From assembly GCA_017412705.1 (NCBI GenBank), contig JAFPWS010000074.1:47986-111985 (forward strand): a DNA stretch of 64,000 nt, read 5' to 3'. Shown in pieces: positions 37,618 through 64,000 of the stretch (positions are counted from its first letter, which is position 1; every line of letters starts with the position of its first letter). This stretch comes from Prevotella sp. (GTDB taxonomy: Bacteria > Bacteroidota > Bacteroidia > Bacteroidales > Bacteroidaceae). The translations under genes were made by a program, and so were the position numbers. The notes beneath the pieces are model-generated. The model was given only the letters and a program-made list of their open reading frames with translations, was not told the origin of the DNA and did no database searches.

Positions 37618-37690
37618 CGCGGAGTGGAGCAGTTGGTAGCTCGCCAGGCTCATAACCTGGAGGTCGCATGTTCGAGTCCTGCCTCCGCAA
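37618..37690 (+). tRNA. tRNA-Met(CAT), initiator-like; prophage attachment site
   Basis: The 73-nt sequence folds as a cloverleaf: acceptor CGCGGAG / CTCCGCA with C1xA72 unpaired, D stem GAGC/GCTC, anticodon stem CCAGG/CCTGG with loop CTCATAA, T stem GCATG/CCTGC around TTCGAGT, discriminator A; CCA is not encoded. The C1xA72 mismatch is the initiator hallmark, though the anticodon stem has only two of the usual three consecutive G-C pairs. T-stem position 52-62 is a T-C mismatch. The integrase gene follows at once, so the 3' part is probably the attL copy of the attachment core. Confidence 0.92.
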
Positions 37691-37705
37691 CTAAAACCAC
37701 TAAGG

Positions 37706-37732
37706 AAGCCCCTGACGACGGGGCTTTTCTTT
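37706..37732 (+). terminator. intrinsic terminator after tRNA-Met
   Basis: Stem AAGCCCC (37706-37712) / GGGGCTT (37720-37726) followed by a T-rich run. It lies on the phage side of the tRNA, so it is probably phage-supplied. Confidence 0.8.
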
Positions 37733-37791
37733 TGTCCGGGGACGAAACACTCGGACAGAAGTGGGACATTGTTGAACCTGTTGGGGAGGAC

Positions 37792-38979
37792 ATGGTGTTT
37801 TCCCCAACAAAAAAAATGCCCATAGGTGAAGATTTCCCGAACTCGGCAAATGGTATAATAGGTTTTACCCTGCCAAGGCTGCATACCGGCAAGAGCTGGT
37901 ATGTGGACTTCTTTTCTTACGACCCCGTCAGTAACAGGATGAAGCGCAAGAAGTACATGCTTGACCGCACCAAGAAGCACAGCGAGCGGCGGATCATGGG
38001 CACCCTGCTCATCGCGCAAATTACCCAGAGGCTCCTCCGCGGCTGGAACCCGTGGGTGCGCGATGACAGCACCAGGCACCTGACGGAGTTCGACGAGGTG
38101 GTGCGGAAATACTGCGAGTATGTGACGGCCATGGAGACGCAAGGGGCGCTGAAGCACAAGACGGCATACGACTACCTGTCGAGGGTCGGAACGCTGACCA
38201 CGTATATCCAGGAGTGCAACGTCGCCATCCGCTACATCTACCAGTTCGACCGATCGTTCGTGGTGGATTACCTGGACTACCTTATTCTCGACAAGGATGT
38301 CAGCGCCACGACGAGGAACAACCACCGCACATGGCTGTCCACGTTCGGCAGCTGGCTGGTGGAGCGGAGCTACCTGAGCGCCAACCCCGTCGAGGGCACC
38401 CACATGCTGAGGGAGAAGGAGAAGCGGCGCGACGCACTGTCTGCCGGCGCTCTCGCGCGCATGCGCGTATACCTTTATAATAATAACAAGCCTTTCCTGC
38501 TGGCCTGCATGATGGAATACTACACCTTCATACGCCCGGACGAACTGAGGCATATCCGCGTCGGCGACGTATCCGTCTCGGAGAAAGAGGTGCGTGTGCC
38601 TGCGGAGGTGTCGAAGAACCACAAGGAGCGCCATGTCGGCATCAACTCGAAGGTGCTACAGCTGATGATTGAGCTGAGGGTGTTCGACGCACCGTCACAA
38701 TACTACCTGTTCGGAAAGGAACTGAAACCGGGCCCGGAGATGACGTACCTCAACCGCTTCCGCTACGAATGGAAGAAGATGCGCCAGGCGCTTCGCTGGC
38801 CTGCCAGCTACCAGTTCTACTCGCTGAAGGACTCTGGCATCCGCGACCTTGCCAACGCTGCCGGCGTGGTGGTGGCACGCGACCAGGCGGGTCACAGCGA
38901 CATCGCCGTCACGAACAGGTACCTGAAGCGGAACAGCACGATTCCGGAAAGCGTCAAGGAGTTCGACGGGTCACTCTAG
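37792..38979 (+). CDS. phage tyrosine recombinase (integrase)
   Basis: About 395 residues if started at ATG 37792; ATG 37816 is an alternative, and longer frames would run into the tRNA. An N-terminal SAM-like DNA-binding region (about 85-185) precedes the catalytic domain. Catalytic positions seen: Arg in YYTFIRPDELR, Lys near SKNHKERHVGI, SLKDSGIRDL in place of the usual HxxR box, His in QAGHSDI and the nucleophile Tyr in TNRYLKR. The LKD-SGI variant occurs in Bacteroidota phage recombinases. It catalyses integration at the adjacent tRNA. The 3' end overlaps the convergent tail gene by 9 bp. Confidence 0.88.
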   Translation: MVFSPTKKMPIGEDFPNSANGIIGFTLPRLHTGKSWYVDFFSYDPVSNRMKRKKYMLDRTKKHSERRIMGTLLIAQITQRLLRGWNPWVRDDSTRHLTEFDEVVRKYCEYVTAMETQGALKHKTAYDYLSRVGTLTTYIQECNVAIRYIYQFDRSFVVDYLDYLILDKDVSATTRNNHRTWLSTFGSWLVERSYLSANPVEGTHMLREKEKRRDALSAGALARMRVYLYNNNKPFLLACMMEYYTFIRPDELRHIRVGDVSVSEKEVRVPAEVSKNHKERHVGINSKVLQLMIELRVFDAPSQYYLFGKELKPGPEMTYLNRFRYEWKKMRQALRWPASYQFYSLKDSGIRDLANAAGVVVARDQAGHSDIAVTNRYLKRNSTIPESVKEFDGSL

Positions 38980-54998: not shown

Positions 54999-55006
54999 CA
55001 AATATA
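54999..55006 (-). promoter_or_regulatory. -7 box upstream of the 354-aa tail gene
   Basis: Reverse strand TATATTTG, 13 bp before ATG 54986; no good -33 TTG is found. It follows the DGR-unit terminator at 55038-55061. Confidence 0.5.
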
Positions 55007-55037
55007 AAAGGTAAGCAGGTAATGCGAGAATACAGAA

Positions 55038-55061
55038 AGACCTTCCGCAACGGGAAGGTCT
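55038..55061 (-). terminator. terminator of the TR-RT-orf129 unit
   Basis: A perfect 9-bp stem agaccttcc / ggaaggtct with a 6-nt loop right after the stop at 55067; a short T-rich run follows on the reverse strand. Confidence 0.65.
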
Positions 55062-55066
55062 CTCTG

Positions 55067-55456
55067 TCAGATGCCGAGCCAGCTCCTGGCCAGCTGCTTG
55101 GCCGACTCGCAGAAGGCGTTGTACTCCCTCCACTCGTCAGCATACAGGGACGGGTCGTTTCCGTAGTGGCGATGGATGGCCATCTCGTCGCTCTCGGTGT
55201 ACTTCGAGCGGATGATGGCGTTCGTCACCTCCGGGTAGGACGTGGCGTCGCCGCACGGCATGACGGTGCCGCCGTCGCGCTCCGTGCCTGTATAGCGGTA
55301 CGCGGTGACGGGGGATGCCTCCTCCCCGGGTTCCGTAACTTCAGGAGTGTAGTCGGGCAACACCTCCTCGTTCATGTAGCCGATAATGTGCGTGGCATCA
55401 TACTTGGCCATGGTCATCGGCTGCTGGTAGACTGCTGAAAACTGTACTTTCTCCAT
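55067..55456 (-). CDS. orf129, downstream partner of the DGR reverse transcriptase
   Basis: A 129-residue protein that begins 2 bp after the RT stop and is followed by a terminator, so it shares the RT transcript. It starts MEKVQFSAVYQQPMTMAKYD, has an acidic linker (YTPEVTEPGEEAS) and ends with a helical, aromatic segment (SLYADEWREYNAFCESAKQL). It does not look like Avd, which is a basic all-helical bundle. Similar tails occur in small tail-associated phage proteins. A role in DGR function or in tail-tip assembly is open. Confidence 0.6.
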   Translation of the reverse strand: MEKVQFSAVYQQPMTMAKYDATHIIGYMNEEVLPDYTPEVTEPGEEASPVTAYRYTGTERDGGTVMPCGDATSYPEVTNAIIRSKYTESDEMAIHRHYGNDPSLYADEWREYNAFCESAKQLARSWLGI

Positions 55457-55458
55457 AA

Positions 55459-57177
55459 CTATGTGAACTTAGTGTAACTCTTACCTTGCTTGCCCTCGAA
55501 CTGCGTGACATAGGTGGGGGACGGCAGGTCCTCAATGGTGAAGTCGTTGATGGCCTGGTCAATCATGATCTTGCTGCCGCTCCAGCTGTAGTATTCCGCA
55601 TCGACCTCCGTAGGATGGCCCTCCTTGTCCTTCACCTTCTCGAAAGTGTAGGTCTCCACCTCCTCACCGTTGGTACCGGTGGTGACAAAGGTCTGAAGGA
55701 TCTTCTTGAAACGGAAAGCCAGCGCCTTGCCCGTGACCTTCTTGACAACCTGCTGCTGCTCACCCTGTGAGTCGGAGACGTTGACAAGCACGTCCTCCTT
55801 GTACTTGCTGTCCGTCACCTTGCACTCCAGAAGGTATATCTTCTTGTCCCAGCCGACGCATCTCTCGCCTTCCTGCTTGACAAGCTCCGAAAAAACGTAC
55901 TTCTGCTCTGGCTGCATTCCTGGGAATGGCGGCTTGACACGCCTCTTCTTGATGATTTTTCCTAATGTTTTCTCCATACCTAGTTTATAAAATAGATTAA
56001 TAGAATTAGCGTGCTTTGCATAAGCAAACATGCTCGACAACCTTACACGTATCTGCTCTTCGTTGAAACCCAGCCTCTGCAGCTTCCTGACCTTCCTCGC
56101 CAGATTCTTCTTGTTCGTCTTGGAGACGGCTGTCTTGCATGGGAAGAACCCGTAACCGATCAGGCGCTCGCCCATCCATACCGGACGGACATTGTAATCG
56201 GTATTCATCAGGCAATGGTAGTCGCGCGTGAGATGCATGATCTCCAAGTCGCGAACCATTAGAAGAAAGGCTTTGTCCTCATGGAGATTGATGATGTTGT
56301 CGACGAAACGGTAATAATGCGGAAGGCCCCTGCCTACCAGCTCGTCGAAACGACGGCCGATAGCCTGGCTGCCCTGGTCGAGCAGATTCCTGTCGTCAGG
56401 TGTGCAGGCCGTCAGTATCTTGGCAGTGATATAGCGGCTTCTCCAATAGGCCATCTTCTCGGGGTCGTCGGCAATCCGGAAAAGACGGACGGCCTCGCGG
56501 TCGAAGTCGGCAAGGTAGATCATGCCCAGCAGCTGGGCGAGCTTGATACCGAGGGGGATGCCCTGGGGGTAGCTGTCGATGACCTTGAAGATGAGACGCC
56601 TGAGCTTCCCTTCCTTGAACATGTTGCTCACCTTCTCCTTGAGAATGGAATGGTCCATCAGCGGGAAATAGTGATGGATATCCTCTGCAAGACAGTATCC
56701 CATGGCCAGCCCAGGATGCCTGTAGATGGCATTCCGCAGGAAACGGAACATGGCATGGGTTCCCAGTCCGGGACGCACGGCAGGAGCCCGCCAGCTGATA
56801 TAGTCGTAGATGCTTTTCTCATACGGCAAGATGGCGGCAGCCTCGACATGATGGTCGTAGATAGGAACCTTTCCTAACACCCTGACCTTCTTGTCGTGAA
56901 TAGTCTTCGCCTTATAGCCTGACGGCCGAAAGGTCTCGTCCTGAATGTCGCGGAGAACTTCCGAGACATGAGTATCCAACTCAGCCTCGTATCTCTGCAC
57001 GTTCTTTCTGGAATGTTTTTCCTCAGAGAATAAGCAGAAGGCCTTGCGGATATTCGACTCGGTCTCGTTCTCCCCATGGTCGCGGATTCGTCGCATTGTT
57101 CTGGGGTCTGACGTGAATAAAATTGGGTCTGGCTGGGTCTTCTGGGGTTTTCTGGGGTCTCGGGATCTGTGGTGCAT
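55459..57177 (-). CDS. DGR-type reverse transcriptase with C-terminal extension
   Basis: A 572-residue RT; ATG 57096 (residue 28) is an equally plausible start. The DGR-like order is visible: GYKAKTIHDKKVRVLGKVPI (88-107), DHHVEAAAIL, PGLGTHAM (136-143), motif A AEDIHHYFPLMDHS (Asp166), motif B GIPLGIKLAQLLG (206-218), motif C YYRFVDNIINL (Asp293, Asn294), motif D/E LIGYGFFPCKTAVSKTNKK (339-357). DGR RTs normally have [I/V/L]GxxxSQ at motif B; here LGxxxAQ. YxDD is FVDN. Residues about 420-572 form a beta-rich, unrecognised extension. It copies TR RNA into mutagenised cDNA for VR. Located 123 bp downstream of TR. Confidence 0.9.
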   Translation of the reverse strand: MHHRSRDPRKPQKTQPDPILFTSDPRTMRRIRDHGENETESNIRKAFCLFSEEKHSRKNVQRYEAELDTHVSEVLRDIQDETFRPSGYKAKTIHDKKVRVLGKVPIYDHHVEAAAILPYEKSIYDYISWRAPAVRPGLGTHAMFRFLRNAIYRHPGLAMGYCLAEDIHHYFPLMDHSILKEKVSNMFKEGKLRRLIFKVIDSYPQGIPLGIKLAQLLGMIYLADFDREAVRLFRIADDPEKMAYWRSRYITAKILTACTPDDRNLLDQGSQAIGRRFDELVGRGLPHYYRFVDNIINLHEDKAFLLMVRDLEIMHLTRDYHCLMNTDYNVRPVWMGERLIGYGFFPCKTAVSKTNKKNLARKVRKLQRLGFNEEQIRVRLSSMFAYAKHANSINLFYKLGMEKTLGKIIKKRRVKPPFPGMQPEQKYVFSELVKQEGERCVGWDKKIYLLECKVTDSKYKEDVLVNVSDSQGEQQQVVKKVTGKALAFRFKKILQTFVTTGTNGEEVETYTFEKVKDKEGHPTEVDAEYYSWSGSKIMIDQAINDFTIEDLPSPTYVTQFEGKQGKSYTKFT

Positions 57178-57299
57178 GAGGGCTCTAAGAACCCATCCGA
57201 CGGGTATGGCGCTCGGCTGAAACCTACGAGCCTCGCCGTCATCTCAGCTGTATTCTTCCAATTGGAAAGGCTCACTCCCTTATACTTTTATGGTTCGTT

Positions 57300-57414
57300 A
57301 GCGCGAAGCCCCTGTTCGCATTGGCATTCGAGGGCGCATTGTTGCCATTGAGACAGCCGGAGCCAGCTTGGCCGGCATTGTTCGCGTTGCCCAAACGGAT
57401 AGCGCCGCGAAGGA
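57300..57414 (-). repeat. DGR template repeat (TR)
   Basis: A 115-bp non-coding copy of the VR at offset 329. Read on the reverse strand in the frame of the target gene it would encode LRGAIRLGNANNAGQAGSGC then LNGNNAPSNANANRGFA. It has 22 adenines on this strand, all within 12 codons (nine AAY Asn codons plus ATC, CAA, AGG). Eight of them differ in VR. It lies 36 bp downstream of a -7 box and 123 bp upstream of the RT start. Confidence 0.95.
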
Positions 57415-57449
57415 GCTGTGGGAGTTCCGCCTACACCGAAATGCGAGCA

Positions 57450-57479
57450 CAAAGGTACTACATTTCCACCTATGTTCAA
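57450..57479 (-). promoter_or_regulatory. promoter of the TR-RT unit
   Basis: Reverse strand -7 TACCTTTG (57457-57450) and -33 TTG (57479-57477) with a 19-bp spacer, a near-ideal Bacteroidota promoter. Start would fall near 57443, about 30 nt before TR. Confidence 0.78.
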
Positions 57480-57514
57480 CAAGTCAAAGAGCGATTTTAG
57501 AAATTTTTAAGATT

Positions 57515-57539
57515 CCCTCCGTCCGATGGGAACGGAGGG
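57515..57539. other. hairpin downstream of VR
   Basis: 8-bp perfect inverted repeat ccctccgt / acggaggg around a 9-nt loop, about 90 bp past the 3' end of VR. It may be a terminator for the fibre operon or the DNA hairpin that some DGRs use to promote retrohoming. Confidence 0.6.
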
Positions 57540-57566
57540 GGAGGCGCTGACGCGCCGGTGTTCCTC

Positions 57567-57581
57567 GTGCTCTCCGAGCAC
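57567..57581. other. short hairpin right after the DGR target gene
   Basis: gtgctc / gagcac (6 bp, 3-nt loop) begins 1 bp after the stop codon at 57583. Another small stem ggcgc / gcgcc lies at about 57543-57556. Confidence 0.5.
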
Positions 57582-57582
57582 C

Positions 57583-59052
57583 CTAATACCACGTCGGCTC
57601 CGTGGTGAAGGCCTCCGAGAATTCACAGAGCGCGAAGCCCCCGTGCGCATCGGCATACGAGGGCGCATTGTCGCCATTGAGACAACCGGAGCCAGCTCGG
57701 CCGGCATTGTTCGCGTCGCCCAAACGGACAGCGCCGCGAAGGACGGTATTGCCTGAGGCTGGATTGTAATAGCCGTCAGCCCAGCCGGTGGTTTCGCTGG
57801 CTCCTATGACTGTCGGTACCATACAGGCATTGTCGAGCTGCATCTCCTTGATCCATTGCCAGGCACTGGCTGAAGGAGTGGTGCCTATCAGCGTATGATT
57901 CGCAATCGAAGACCTGTCAAAGACATGCCCGTCGATATTGTTGTCGATGTACATGCTCTGCGTCTTGTCGGTGTTATTGATGAACAGCTCATCCTCTGTC
58001 GTTGCCCACAGATACTTGTAGTCGTTCTTCAGTCCCAAGAATGACGGAATATCTGACAGTGTAATCTCCTCGTCGTCCTTGTTCAGACCCGTCACACTGA
58101 AAGAGCCGGTATAGTCACCCAGCTCCAGGCCTGCGTCGAGGTCGATATAGGGATTGTATGCCAATTCTTCCGTCCAGTTCGGATGCTGTGTCACACCCTG
58201 GCCGGTACCACCCTGGGGAAGGTTGTCGGCGGTCAACGTAGCATTGACGGCTGCCTGGATGTTACGGTTGTGGAAGAAGATGCGCTTGATGACTGCGGTC
58301 AGGAAGAACACGGCACGCTCATTGACGAACCATAGCGTACCGTTGGCACGGGCATAGCCGACGACAGTGGCCACGTTGATATTCGTGACAGGCTTGCCGA
58401 GCAGGCTGCGCCAGGTGCCGTCCCAATTACTGTTGTTGCCACCACGGAACTGGGCGGTCTTGTTGATGCAGGACATCAGCACCAGGTTGGTGCGGTCGAG
58501 GGCCGCAAAACCTGCACAGCTGCGCGAGAAGACCGGGAAACGGATATTTTTGTGGCCGGGGATGGGCACGATGTCGATGGCTTCGTACTCGTAGACGGTA
58601 TCCTTCCAGTGTGCATAGTAGATGGGGACGTTCGACCCCCACTGGTAGTGGCCTGCGGAGCCGTCCAGGACTGCCTGCTGGCCGTCGGCAAGGTAGTTAT
58701 GGTCGGAAGCGGACAGTTTCTGTCGCGTGTGGTCGCTGGCGACGAGGTAACCGCCCAGGCCGAAGATGGAGGCCATCTTCTCGATCTTGGCAAGGGAACC
58801 CACAGGCTCGCCTTCCGTGGCTACGGAGTCAAGGCGCCAGCGGCAGCCGCACCAGGTGGTGGAGTGGCTGATGTGCAGATCCAGCGCATCCTGCACCTCC
58901 TGCACCTTGGCATCGGTCTCAGACTTCTTGTAGTACCGGTCGTCATGGGTGTGCGAGGTGTCGCTCTTCTTGTCGAACTCCGCCTTCAACTTCTGCAGAA
59001 AGACGGTTTCGGCATCGGTACCGGACAATTTGTTCAGAACGTTATCAGCCAT
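57583..59052 (-). CDS. DGR target: variable tail-tip protein
   Basis: A 489-residue tail-fibre protein. The N-terminus has a coiled-coil-like region (FLQKLKAEFDKKSDTSHTHD, 18-37) typical of fibre attachment; a middle domain (about 90-300) is beta-rich; a second domain (about 320-400) includes DYKYLWATTEDELFINNTD. The C-terminus (about 437-475) is the variable repeat: LRGAVRLGDANNAGRAGSGC, then LNGDNAPSYADAHGGFALCE. The GGFAL ending and spaced variable sites fit a C-type-lectin-like DGR variable domain. It probably binds host receptors at the tail tip, and VR variation would switch specificity. Confidence 0.88.
   Translation of the reverse strand: MADNVLNKLSGTDAETVFLQKLKAEFDKKSDTSHTHDDRYYKKSETDAKVQEVQDALDLHISHSTTWCGCRWRLDSVATEGEPVGSLAKIEKMASIFGLGGYLVASDHTRQKLSASDHNYLADGQQAVLDGSAGHYQWGSNVPIYYAHWKDTVYEYEAIDIVPIPGHKNIRFPVFSRSCAGFAALDRTNLVLMSCINKTAQFRGGNNSNWDGTWRSLLGKPVTNINVATVVGYARANGTLWFVNERAVFFLTAVIKRIFFHNRNIQAAVNATLTADNLPQGGTGQGVTQHPNWTEELAYNPYIDLDAGLELGDYTGSFSVTGLNKDDEEITLSDIPSFLGLKNDYKYLWATTEDELFINNTDKTQSMYIDNNIDGHVFDRSSIANHTLIGTTPSASAWQWIKEMQLDNACMVPTVIGASETTGWADGYYNPASGNTVLRGAVRLGDANNAGRAGSGCLNGDNAPSYADAHGGFALCEFSEAFTTEPTWY
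57629..57743 (-). repeat. DGR variable repeat (VR)
   Basis: 115 bp at the 3' end of the target gene, ending 46 bp before the stop. Compared with TR there are 9 differences; 8 at TR adenines (A to G five times, and A to T, C and others), all non-synonymous: Ile-Val, Asn-Asp x3, Gln-Arg, Asn-Tyr, Asn-His, Arg-Gly. The ninth is a synonymous C to T in a Gly codon. The 3' end ggggcttcgcgct is identical in both, a candidate initiation site. Confidence 0.95.
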
Positions 59053-59063
59053 GGCTCGGTTGT

Positions 59064-59555
59064 TTAGGGTTCTTGCTCATTCGTCTGGGGGTTGAACACG
59101 GAGTCAAACAGGGTTGCGGCGTCCTGGGCGGACATGACCTCGACATTCTCCAGTGTCGTGATGCGGCCGGAAAGGGCGCCCTCTGCGGTAGTAGCACGGG
59201 TCTGTTCGTCGGTGATGCGCTGGCCGAGGGACGTCTCGGCAGCCTGGGCGCGCGCGGCCTCGGCAGAGACAGCGGTATCGACGGCGTCAATGAGTGACTT
59301 CAGGGTGTCATCCTCACTGTAGTCGGCAAGGAAGGCCTTTACCTCGTTGAAGGTGTTGATGATCTTGTCGAGGTCGCCGTCACCGCCGACAAGGGTGTCC
59401 AGCTGCTGCTGGAGACTGTTGACCGCATTCGAGCGGGCCGTGCTCTCGGTGGTCATCTGCGTCGTGATGTACAGCTTGAGGTCGATAAGGGTCTGCTCCA
59501 GACTTAGGTCTGTGACAATCTGCTGCTGTGCAGCTACTTGTTTCAATGTTGCCAT
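59064..59555 (-). CDS. coiled-coil tail-fibre shaft protein, 163 aa
   Basis: A 163-residue protein made mostly of heptads and Ala-rich helices (ARAQAAETSLGQRITDEQTR), with a C-terminal motif MSAQDAATLFDSVFNPQTNE. A very similar C-terminal motif (EATNLFNRIFNPITD) ends the next upstream protein, pointing to a shared docking element. It is 11 bp upstream of the DGR target gene and probably forms a trimeric stalk. Confidence 0.65.
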   Translation of the reverse strand: MATLKQVAAQQQIVTDLSLEQTLIDLKLYITTQMTTESTARSNAVNSLQQQLDTLVGGDGDLDKIINTFNEVKAFLADYSEDDTLKSLIDAVDTAVSAEAARAQAAETSLGQRITDEQTRATTAEGALSGRITTLENVEVMSAQDAATLFDSVFNPQTNEQEP

Positions 59556-59559
59556 ATCA

Positions 59560-60204
59560 TTAATCAGTTATAGGGTTAAAAATTCTGTTGAAGAGGTTTG
59601 TGGCCTCGGTGACTCCCAGCACCTTCATGTCCTTGATGGCATCAAGGTCGGTCTTGTCCTCGGCACTCATCATACCGTCAGACTCATGGGTGGCCGTGCC
59701 TGTGACATACTGGTTGAGGAAGTCGTCCAGCGTACCGCTGTTGCCGGCCTCCAGCCATAGCTCGTAGGCGTTCTTGCCCGCAGCGACTGCACTGCCGACA
59801 ATGGCGATATCCATAGAAAAGGAGGCTGAGCGGGAACCGCCAATACGCTCGAATACGGTATTCGCCTCGGCGTTCGTGGCGACAATGGAGAAGACAGGGC
59901 TCTCGAAGCTGGCGACAGCCGCACCGTTGAGCATGGCTTTCACACGGACGCTGTAACGCCCTCTCTCGGTCTCGGCGGGAATGCTCAGGACAAGGCCGTT
60001 GGCACTGCCCTCGACACGCCGAGCCACGACCTCGCGGAACGAACGCGCATTGTGGATGGTGACCTGCAGAGAGGTGGCTTCCTCCAGGGGGAACTCCCTG
60101 AAGACACCACGACCGTTGCCACCTGCGACCTGCTCGTACAGCCAACACACCAGGAGGACATCGTTGCCCTCCACCCAGGATAGAATGTCGTTGCGTCTGT
60201 TCAT
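59560..60204 (-). CDS. tail-fibre/appendage protein, 214 aa
   Basis: A 214-residue protein with an Ig-like beta domain in the N-terminal half (VTIHNARSFREVVARRVEGS, LSIPAETERGRYSVRVKAML) and a helical C-terminal half ending EATNLFNRIFNPITD. Its place in the fibre gene run supports a baseplate or fibre-attachment role. It starts the two-gene pair whose products share a C-terminal motif. Confidence 0.6.
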   Translation of the reverse strand: MNRRNDILSWVEGNDVLLVCWLYEQVAGGNGRGVFREFPLEEATSLQVTIHNARSFREVVARRVEGSANGLVLSIPAETERGRYSVRVKAMLNGAAVASFESPVFSIVATNAEANTVFERIGGSRSASFSMDIAIVGSAVAAGKNAYELWLEAGNSGTLDDFLNQYVTGTATHESDGMMSAEDKTDLDAIKDMKVLGVTEATNLFNRIFNPITD

Positions 60205-62694: not shown

Positions 62695-64000
62695 TTAACT
62701 GGTGAACGCTATTTGTTTGCGTACTGAACCGTTATAATAGTAGAGATTGCCGCCGCTGACGTAGATGTACCTGCTCGAATCGAGGAACACCCGGCCGCCA
62801 CCAGTGTAAATGCTTCCGCCGCCGGTGTTAATGTCGTACCCGTCGACGATAAGGTTATTGTCAATTATAACGCCCTCTGAACCGCTAATAACCAGGCTTC
62901 CGTTGCTGTCGCCATAGAAGGAATGCGTAAAGCCACTTCCTTTGACGTGCAGTCGGGTATTGACCGTCAGATAGTTGAACGCCATCGTGTCTACGGATGA
63001 CGTGCCTGCGCTCATTCCGAGGGCCGACACTGCACCTGTGGCGTAGAAGTTGGCAGCCGTACCGTCTGGCTTTATCACCTTCAGGGCATTGTTGACTGAG
63101 TCCCACACTATCATGCCGTCACCGACGCGTATACCGCCAAAGGCGTGTGCGATGTATCCATATGAGCTCTCGTTGTAGACACGAAATGCCAGTTTATTGT
63201 TGCCCTCGGTAACGGCAAAGCCGTCGCTGCTGGTGTCAGCACTACGCAAGTTGCCTATCTGCCACTCTGAACTGTACCACTTGAACGACAGCGCATGGCG
63301 AATGGCCGAAAGTCCGTACAACGCGTTTGTGGTGATGGCACCGTTGGTATTCCTGATTACCGTGATGTCATTGCTCTCGACGCCGATAATACGCATGGTG
63401 CCATATACATCAAGCTTGTAGGATGGGTTGCTGGTGCCTATACCAACATTGCCAGCTTGGTTCATACTTATGTTGCCCGAACCTGTCTTGAGCGTCAGGC
63501 CGAAATAGTCTGAGATGGTGGTGCTGAAGACACCTGTGTTCGGTTTCCGGTGGTCGTAGCCATGCCAAGGATGCGTGTTGGTGCCGTCGCTCCATGTGTC
63601 TGTATAACTGGTGGCCATCGCGAGCGTCGAGAACGTCATGATGCCGTTCACGGCACCGTTGCTCGCTGCCTGCCCCCAGAAGGTGGTAGCGTTGCTGAGT
63701 GGTGTGTAGCCCAGTGCGCTTGTCACCATCGACTGCGTGATGCCTGTCAGGTAGCCTGCCTGCGAGTGATCGCCCCAACCGTAAGCGGTGTCCCACTGTG
63801 TCTGTTTGGCCGTGGTGGGCAGGGAGTAGCCGCTGGCGAAGGTCAGGGCAAGCGTTCCGCTTGCAGTGATGGGCGAACCGCTGACGCTGAAGCCTGTAGG
63901 GACACTCATAGCCACGCTGGTAACGCCGCCTGCTGCCGCTCCGTAGTACCAGTGCTTTGTATCGTTGTTCCACAGCAGGCTGTAGCCGTTGACGGTAGGA
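62695..64000 (-). CDS. tail-fibre protein, N-terminus outside window
   Basis: The reverse strand is open to the right edge: upstream of the first internal ATG (63915) it reads TVNGYSLLWNNDTKHWYYGA, so the gene begins beyond 64000. Visible features include AYGWGDHSQAGYLTGITQSM, GNVGIGTSNPSYKLDVYGT and C-terminal RYIYVSGGNLYYYNGSVRKQ. These are recurrent fibre motifs in Bacteroidota phages. No chaperone (peptidase S74) domain is present at its end. It probably binds the host surface or scaffolds other fibre parts. Confidence 0.75.
   Translation of the reverse strand, partial: PTVNGYSLLWNNDTKHWYYGAAAGGVTSVAMSVPTGFSVSGSPITASGTLALTFASGYSLPTTAKQTQWDTAYGWGDHSQAGYLTGITQSMVTSALGYTPLSNATTFWGQAASNGAVNGIMTFSTLAMATSYTDTWSDGTNTHPWHGYDHRKPNTGVFSTTISDYFGLTLKTGSGNISMNQAGNVGIGTSNPSYKLDVYGTMRIIGVESNDITVIRNTNGAITTNALYGLSAIRHALSFKWYSSEWQIGNLRSADTSSDGFAVTEGNNKLAFRVYNESSYGYIAHAFGGIRVGDGMIVWDSVNNALKVIKPDGTAANFYATGAVSALGMSAGTSSVDTMAFNYLTVNTRLHVKGSGFTHSFYGDSNGSLVISGSEGVIIDNNLIVDGYDINTGGGSIYTGGGRVFLDSSRYIYVSGGNLYYYNGSVRKQIAFTS

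Follow-up and report, generated by a model that had tools for sequence, protein, structure and literature searches.

The stretch of DNA analysed here, referred to below as the window, comprises 64,000 nucleotides of a Prevotella sp. assembly (GCA_017412705.1, contig JAFPWS010000074.1, positions 47,986 to 111,985) and carries on its minus strand the parts of a diversity-generating retroelement (DGR), all of whose coordinates are given in window positions. The target gene (57583..59052, minus strand) encodes a 489-aa tail protein that matches PHROG_5302 (E=3.4e-41), and kin targets adjoin the same reverse transcriptase (RT) in relatives; its codons 437-475 make up the variable repeat (VR; 57629..57743, minus strand), which ends 14 codons before the target stop codon. 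A gap of 214 nt separates the VR from the template repeat (TR; 57300..57414, minus strand), which lies between the target and RT genes and holds 22 adenines, many of them in AAC or AAT codons of the VR frame, and a further 122 nt separate the TR from the RT open reading frame (ORF; 55459..57177, minus strand). The latter encodes a fused protein of 572 aa, composed of an RT (PHROG_1423 reverse transcriptase, E=3.6e-44) and a C-terminal (CT) domain of 172 aa that begins at M401 (55459..55977, minus strand; 26 aligned rows) and contains no G tract in the window copy. The conserved start of the RT is probably M28, at 57096, which is invariant in the family alignment (A1).

The TR and VR align over 115 bases without gaps, their likeness ends sharply on both sides, and they form the longest direct repeat within 55000-60000, where the runner-up measures 27 nt. 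They differ at 9 of the 115 bases, 8 of these at TR adenines (on the coding, minus strand: six A>G and one each of A>T, A>C and C>T); each of the eight adenine changes is non-synonymous (I>V, N>D, Q>R, N>D, N>Y, N>D, N>H and R>G) and the single non-adenine difference is synonymous (GGC>GGT). The initial annotation, which had described a complete DGR in a prophage on the strength of these very repeats, placed the TR, VR and target gene correctly, and its count of differences and of protein-altering changes is confirmed, as is its view of the target as a tail protein, which rests on the PHROG_5302 match; the target may also, as it proposed, form the tail tip and track host receptors. For an ordinary partial duplication that has diverged by chance there speaks nothing beyond the existence of a repeat; with a hypergeometric P=4.3e-6 in the window for at least 8 of 9 differences falling on the 22 adenines, and values down to P=9e-18 in relatives, that origin is so extremely improbable that we regard it as ruled out, and the adenine pattern observed in the window is that of a real DGR.

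A short inverted repeat with a 6-bp stem just 3' of the VR (57588..57606, minus strand) is a tentative candidate for a target hairpin; stems of at least 6 bp occur downstream of the VR in 37 of 77 family loci, upstream of it in 17/77 and in shuffled sequence in 6/77, an enrichment of what are nevertheless short stems. A search for a C-type lectin fold gave no Pfam match in any of 18 targets, and a single PDB sequence at E=0.73 was taken as chance. The window target and TR found no match among phages by megablast, and the closest other target in 60 related genomes is 46% identical to that of the window.

What sets the element apart is its RT. The second aspartate of the YxDD motif is generally treated as essential for reverse transcription. 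The best solved structure for the window RT is 8ub7 (E=2.7e-28 with the family profile, seven solved sequences being matched), which we take to be a Bordetella phage RT, and alignment to its YMDD places FVDN at motif C (56296..56307, minus strand; N294 codon at 56296-56298). The catalytic aspartate of motif A (D166, codon 56680..56682, minus strand) is an aspartate in 61/61 xDN/xDG, 5/5 LADD and 24/24 YxDD rows, and together with the first aspartate of motif C (D293) it is kept in all 61 xDN/xDG rows. Between motifs B and C the spacing comparison reveals an insert of approximately residues 227-285 that includes DPEKMAYW (56323..56499, minus strand): D226 and D293 lie 65-67 residues apart in what we term the RT-CT clade, compared with 16 in 23 of 24 YxDD RTs and 25 in the remaining one. 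Motif 4 of the window RT reads GIKLAQ, not GxxxSQ, the form present in ~90% of DGR RTs (PMC3521204), and some relatives have SQ. Scans with the RT and its alignment over IMG/VR and GTDB genomes yielded the relatives, and in 119 sequences (the window and 118 loci, one of which, L117, is a copy of the window) motif C reads FVDN in 61, FADN in 26, FVDG in 3, YMDD in 26 and YVDD in 3; the change being clade-wide, a sequencing error in motif C is ruled out.

For the tree, 86 of 200 RT rows were kept at <90% identity, 61 of them with F[V/A/M]D[N/G] and 25 with DD at motif C. In this quick maximum-likelihood tree, calculated without the motif C columns and with support from the Shimodaira-Hasegawa-like approximate likelihood ratio test (SH-aLRT) only, the DD rows make up one side of a branch with support 99, in keeping with one DD-to-nonDD change followed by one DN-to-DG change; the six rows named as outgroup were not placed together on one side of any branch. 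Closest among the DD rows is L191 (LADD), which falls with the 61 xDN/xDG rows, again with support 99, and these 62 rows constitute the RT-CT clade. By alignment and tree, then, the window RT is a member of a clade that lost the second motif C aspartate, leaving xDN and in some members xDG, and since L191 shares the CT domain the fusion is probably older than that loss.

The insert offers a candidate for compensation, in that an acidic residue at position 240 may make up for the lost aspartate: this residue is D or E in 59 of the 61 xDN/xDG rows and A in five close LADD rows, and residue 245 is W in 61/61 and Y in the same five. Two considerations weigh against reading much into this pattern: the scans for relatives used DPEKMA-type peptide patterns, so that conservation at 238-244 is inflated and partly a matter of ascertainment, and the five LADD rows are one lineage, so that the co-change at residue 240 counts as one event.

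The repeats of relatives indicate that the clade still diversifies. A TR/VR pair was taken to qualify at P<1e-3 with at least 80% of differences at A, and L001 (a copy of L118), L117 (a copy of the window) and three duplicate pairs were left out of the pair counts. Among FxDN loci, 76 of 86 (window included) have a qualifying pair, 73 of them distinct, and in these 73 the changed TR adenines number 894/1669 and the changed other bases 9/6934. All three FVDG loci qualify (38/69 A and 1/288 non-A changed), YxDD loci examined for comparison gave 25 pairs from 28 loci (324/680 A and 9/2520 non-A changed), and 24 of 25 further CT-bearing loci hold a TR/VR pair with at most one difference off adenines, the exception being L188. 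The initial annotation had proposed looking in relatives for variation spread off the adenines or for a conserved VR; neither was seen, the VRs of relatives varying from one to the next with nearly every difference at a TR adenine, and its reading as a DGR withstood this check. The mutation spectra of the FxDN and YxDD pairs (A>G 404/894 vs 183/324, chi-square P=0.002; non-A 9/6934 vs 9/2520, P=0.05) are not relied on, because the VRs are not independent and are under selection and the pairs were filtered.

The strongest evidence for continued diversification, as judged from these alignments, is provided by comparisons of loci on a fixed background. L041 and L097 show 20 VR differences, 19 at TR adenines, and 0/2917 differences outside the VR; L105 and L112 show 11, all at TR adenines, and 0/2829 outside it. 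Over the 13 locus pairs compared (chosen from 95), 186 of 194 VR differences fall on TR adenines, the worst pair being L008/L037, with 3 of 19 off them. Several observations pull the other way. Because the pairs were filtered for adenine bias, the true non-adenine rate may be higher than the one counted, which is a lower bound; L074 and L095, an FVDG pair with eight VR differences that are all at TR adenines, differ at 69/2828 sites outside the VR and are not a fixed background; and 10 of the 86 FxDN loci have no qualifying pair. Of these ten, L026, L040, L073 and L090 start at a contig end, the VR of L099 is cut (its differences are 3/3 at A), and the RTs of L027 and L044 are broken; L032, L107 and L109 have a TR and no full VR.

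A rival account is that the FxDN RT is catalytically dead or feeble and that the copying of its TR falls to a canonical RT elsewhere in the cell, acting in trans. A second DGR is indeed present in the window's own genome, where contig C39 (L001/L118) encodes a YVDD RT and 20/20 TR/VR differences of L118 are at template adenines, and in P. lacticifex (L119), whose YCDD RT has a phrog_19665-like C-terminus and whose TR/VR differences are 17/17 at adenines, so that help in trans is possible in both. The man-made D211N mutant of Ty1 RT, which turns the second D of YXDD into N, adds to this concern: in the published account it retains polymerase activity in vitro, with a preference for Mn2+ and a kpol that is 223-fold lower, and has lost transposition in vivo, indicating that the loss is costly elsewhere (PMC2148107). 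The phage clade, unlike that mutant, is natural and divergent, and its RTs are under strong purifying selection, with ratios of nonsynonymous to synonymous substitution rates (dN/dS) of 0.039-0.12 in 22 of 24 pairs (two were not computable) and of 0.061 in the FVDG pair L074/L078. A dead gene would not keep dN/dS at 0.04-0.12, and D166 and D293 stand in every xDN/xDG row; moreover, RT and TR stay together across the clade, and other RTs in the carriers' cells were sought in two genomes only, albeit found in both. We accordingly consider rescue by a second RT quite improbable, and favor the reading in which the clade's RT polymerises in vivo with two catalytic carboxylates, D166 and D293. Outside reverse transcriptases the arrangement has a parallel, some RNA virus RNA polymerases carrying xDN in motif C.

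The second peculiarity of the clade is the fused domain. A CT match was obtained in 62/62 clade rows, in 60 of them within the RT ORF and in the two with broken RTs (L027 and L044) in another ORF, and in none of the other 24 DD rows at the same limit. When CT alone was used as the query, RT sequence lay upstream in 79 of the best 80 of 81 loci encoding a relative (in L195 in another frame) and the remaining locus begins at a contig end, the pattern scan behind this search reaching close kin only. Searched on its own, CT matched no Pfam family at E<=1 and no PDB sequence at E<=10, and PHROG gave nothing firm.

Alongside the constant presence of CT goes a scarcity of Avd, the accessory protein of the Bordetella phage BPP-1 DGR. 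No bAvd match was found beside the window RT among the 10 phage proteins scanned, PF22296 not having been searched in the window's genome, and in 20 chosen clade phage records, which may be fragments and from which L049 was left out, PF22296 exceeded its cut-off in one, ~15 kb from the RT, and stayed below it in a second. The sole Avd over the cut-off is L207, in the record of L072, and may belong to another DGR. Conversely, Avd exceeded the cut-off in 6 of 7 YxDD genomes and fell below it in the seventh, the match lying within the DGR locus in all 7; none was found in the LADD record or in BT-TP2. In the BPP-1 system (bRT, Avd, mtd), which resembles the window in its TR/VR adenine mutagenesis, the RT adjoining the TR and the tail-protein target, and differs from it by having YMDD (8ub7) where the window has FVDN, a long B-C insert, a fused CT and no Avd found beside the RT, reconstitution in E. 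coli shows that either YMDD>SMAA or loss of avd brings repair to ~1e-9 (PMC12875486). Taken together with the linkage of CT to the RT, the distribution of Avd suggests that CT probably does part of Avd's job in BPP-1-type DGRs.

A possible relative of CT is the small family phrog_19665, which occurs together with a YADD RT in a locus of 3.3 kb in 3/3 genomes found among 198 searched, and which matches the C-terminal part of two YCDD RTs. The CT profile matches an ORF adjoining the vir525 RT at E=2e-4 (hhalign probability 18%), and that ORF in turn matches phrog_19665 only at E=0.011; hhalign found no link between CT and the C-terminal extensions of BT-TP2 and of the second P. lacticifex RT. 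Kinship between CT and phrog_19665 is hence a weak, suggestive lead. As a separate observation, a small protein of the phrog_19665 kind occurs near DGR-type RTs in L202, L203 and L204, and weakly in L200, and may represent a DGR accessory family.

One could instead regard the whole as an ordinary DGR that tolerates its altered motif C as a side detail, and whose fused domain is a neighboring phage gene, a bystander reached by readthrough of the RT. In their mutation pattern the FxDN loci broadly resemble YxDD DGRs, and the first residue of CT is a conserved Met, as would be expected of a gene in its own right; a bystander, however, would hardly accompany RT sequence in 79/80 loci, the exception being cut (more divergent lone copies would be missed), and in 62/62 clade rows, and a survey of 155 DGRs reports both motif C aspartates as 100% conserved (PMC3521204), which speaks against a readily tolerated change. 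This account appears unlikely to us, and we retain CT as a probable working part of the clade's DGRs.

A third feature, confined to relatives, concerns the reading frame. From 159 CT stretches we kept 96 distinct ones, window included, dropping 55 as identical and 8 because they lacked one or both ends or lay on the opposite strand. In 49 of the 96 there is a run of 7-16 G or C bases, starting 37-42 codons into CT in 49/49, and there is none in the window copy, which is in frame; by motif C it occurs in 48/61 FVDN, 1/3 FVDG, 0/28 FADN and 0/4 FMDN stretches. The frame is kept in 12 of the 49 with a tract, a share not different from one third (P=0.23), and in 47/47 without one; L044, left out for being incomplete, shows a broken frame in the absence of a tract. 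Loci identical over the compared RT stretch differ in tract length (L032/L091, L020/L096) and also in reading state (e.g. L020/L096). This association of tract and frame in relatives of the window suggests phase variation: the G tract that one subclade has close to the junction of RT and CT would render the fusion phase-variable. Two details stand apart, namely that L026 has cytosines in place of guanines in its tract, which lies at nearly the usual position, and that L088 has two long G tracts (16 and 14 bases) ~50 bases apart in its CT gene.

The tract could alternatively be a site of programmed slippage or frameshifting, or in part a sequencing artefact. L041 and L097 have each lost the frame at the tract and have nonetheless diversified, which argues against a strict CT-dependent on/off switch, and many of the records come from metagenomes presumably assembled from short reads, in which homopolymer length is error-prone. 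Set against these alternatives are the fixed position of the tract in 49/49 stretches, the mere 6 other G or C runs of at least 7 bases in 1.02 Mb of the same loci, and the intact frame of all 47 tract-free stretches. CT is under purifying selection (dN/dS 0.020-0.134) in 9 of 10 pairs that are out of frame on both sides, the tenth (L032/L108) not aligning in register; CT is therefore probably translated part of the time even where it is out of frame, which fits slippage too. Slippage or artefact is for these reasons a serious contender, and phase variation is the interpretation toward which we lean.

Comparison with other known elements helps to define what is peculiar to the clade. The YCDD, YADD and YMDD RTs of Bacteroidales phages and genomes (BT-TP2, cr50_1, Versailles, L202-L204), known here from their RT sequences, are DGR-type by sequence like that of the window, and a phrog_19665-like C-terminus is present in BT-TP2, as is a phrog_19665 ORF close to the RT in L202-L204; unlike the window RT, all keep DD and are without the long insert. 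The IMG/VR records of L191-L195 share the insert length and the CT domain, with 9-13 TR/VR differences that are all at adenines, yet their motif C is LADD, with both aspartates kept, and they are the nearest outside the xDN clade. The epsilon crAss-like DGR (crAssE-Sib) also has an RT that does not conform to a textbook motif and that escaped myDGR, the odd motif being in its case motif 4, with YxDD kept, unlike the window RT (PMC11054128). Among the matches listed in the open-access literature, in the parts accessible, we found no description of FxDN DGR RTs and none of a DGR-linked G tract.

As regards its genomic setting, a prophage is indicated in the window by genes for a tape-measure protein and an endolysin, by a weak match to a portal protein and by a tyrosine integrase ORF (37624..38979, plus strand; PF00589, E=4.4e-10) adjoining a tRNA-Met gene (37618..37691, plus strand) that by its position is the likely attachment site; the integrase ORF as listed overlaps the tRNA gene, so that its true start is probably downstream. 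The far end of the prophage and the other attachment site are missing because the contig ends where the window ends. An ORF at 62695-63915 (minus strand) without a PHROG match gives the impression, from a YTPLSN-type stretch, of a tail-fibre-like protein. All 33 FxDN loci from named genomes (L012-L044) stand under Prevotella or Prevotellaceae or other Bacteroidales names, whose genera we take to belong to that order, and one carrier in the genome collection has a strain number, Prevotella lacticifex JCM 34664 (L029). Among 201 genomes searched from the host's family, the RT family profile matched at E<=1e-60 in 2, one of them that of the window. We take the cassette to be the DGR of a temperate tailed phage, probably one with a Bacteroidales host; the Prevotella-type host initially proposed fits the names borne by the RT relatives, which are those of Prevotella or of other Bacteroidales. 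The description of the element as a complete DGR in a prophage stands as far as TR, VR, a DGR-kin RT, a tail-protein target and an integrase adjoining tRNA-Met are concerned, and requires amendment in that the RT is without the second catalytic aspartate and contains a large insertion as well as an additional domain fused to it, and in that no Avd was found beside it.

The DGR of the window is thus probably functional and of a known kind, with an RT from an atypical clade. In the mechanism that we propose, the RT would copy the TR RNA, misreading adenines, and the resulting cDNA would replace the VR at the 3' end of the tail-protein gene. That this is a working DGR, that the xDN/xDG clade RT polymerises in vivo with two carboxylates, that CT partly replaces Avd and that the tract of one subclade is phase-variable is, as one joint claim resting on sequence comparison, something we hold with considerable confidence. 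The fullest version, namely a clade of Bacteroidales phage DGRs with a two-carboxylate RT, a replacement acid supplied by the insert, Avd swapped for a fused domain and, in a subclade, a mutator switched by random G-tract mutation, is more ambitious and unlikely to be right in every part, and we put it forward tentatively.

These findings not only place a further element among DGRs, a kind already known, but also bring to light what is unusual and had been missed by the initial annotation, an RT clade without the second motif C aspartate. Such RTs are easily missed, given that PF00078 has no match to the window RT or to that of P. lacticifex (the two genomes tried, at the limits used) and that the first round of a large DGR survey required a Pfam RT match and 250-550 aa, later rounds possibly having recovered such RTs (PMC8144416). 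If the reading of the tract is true, a targeted mutator would itself be switched by random mutation in one subclade. Above all, a natural clade that diversifies its target genes without the second aspartate would render a question of polymerase catalysis testable, namely the replacement of a carboxylate and its bearing on fidelity, and this atypical RT clade therefore merits biochemistry.

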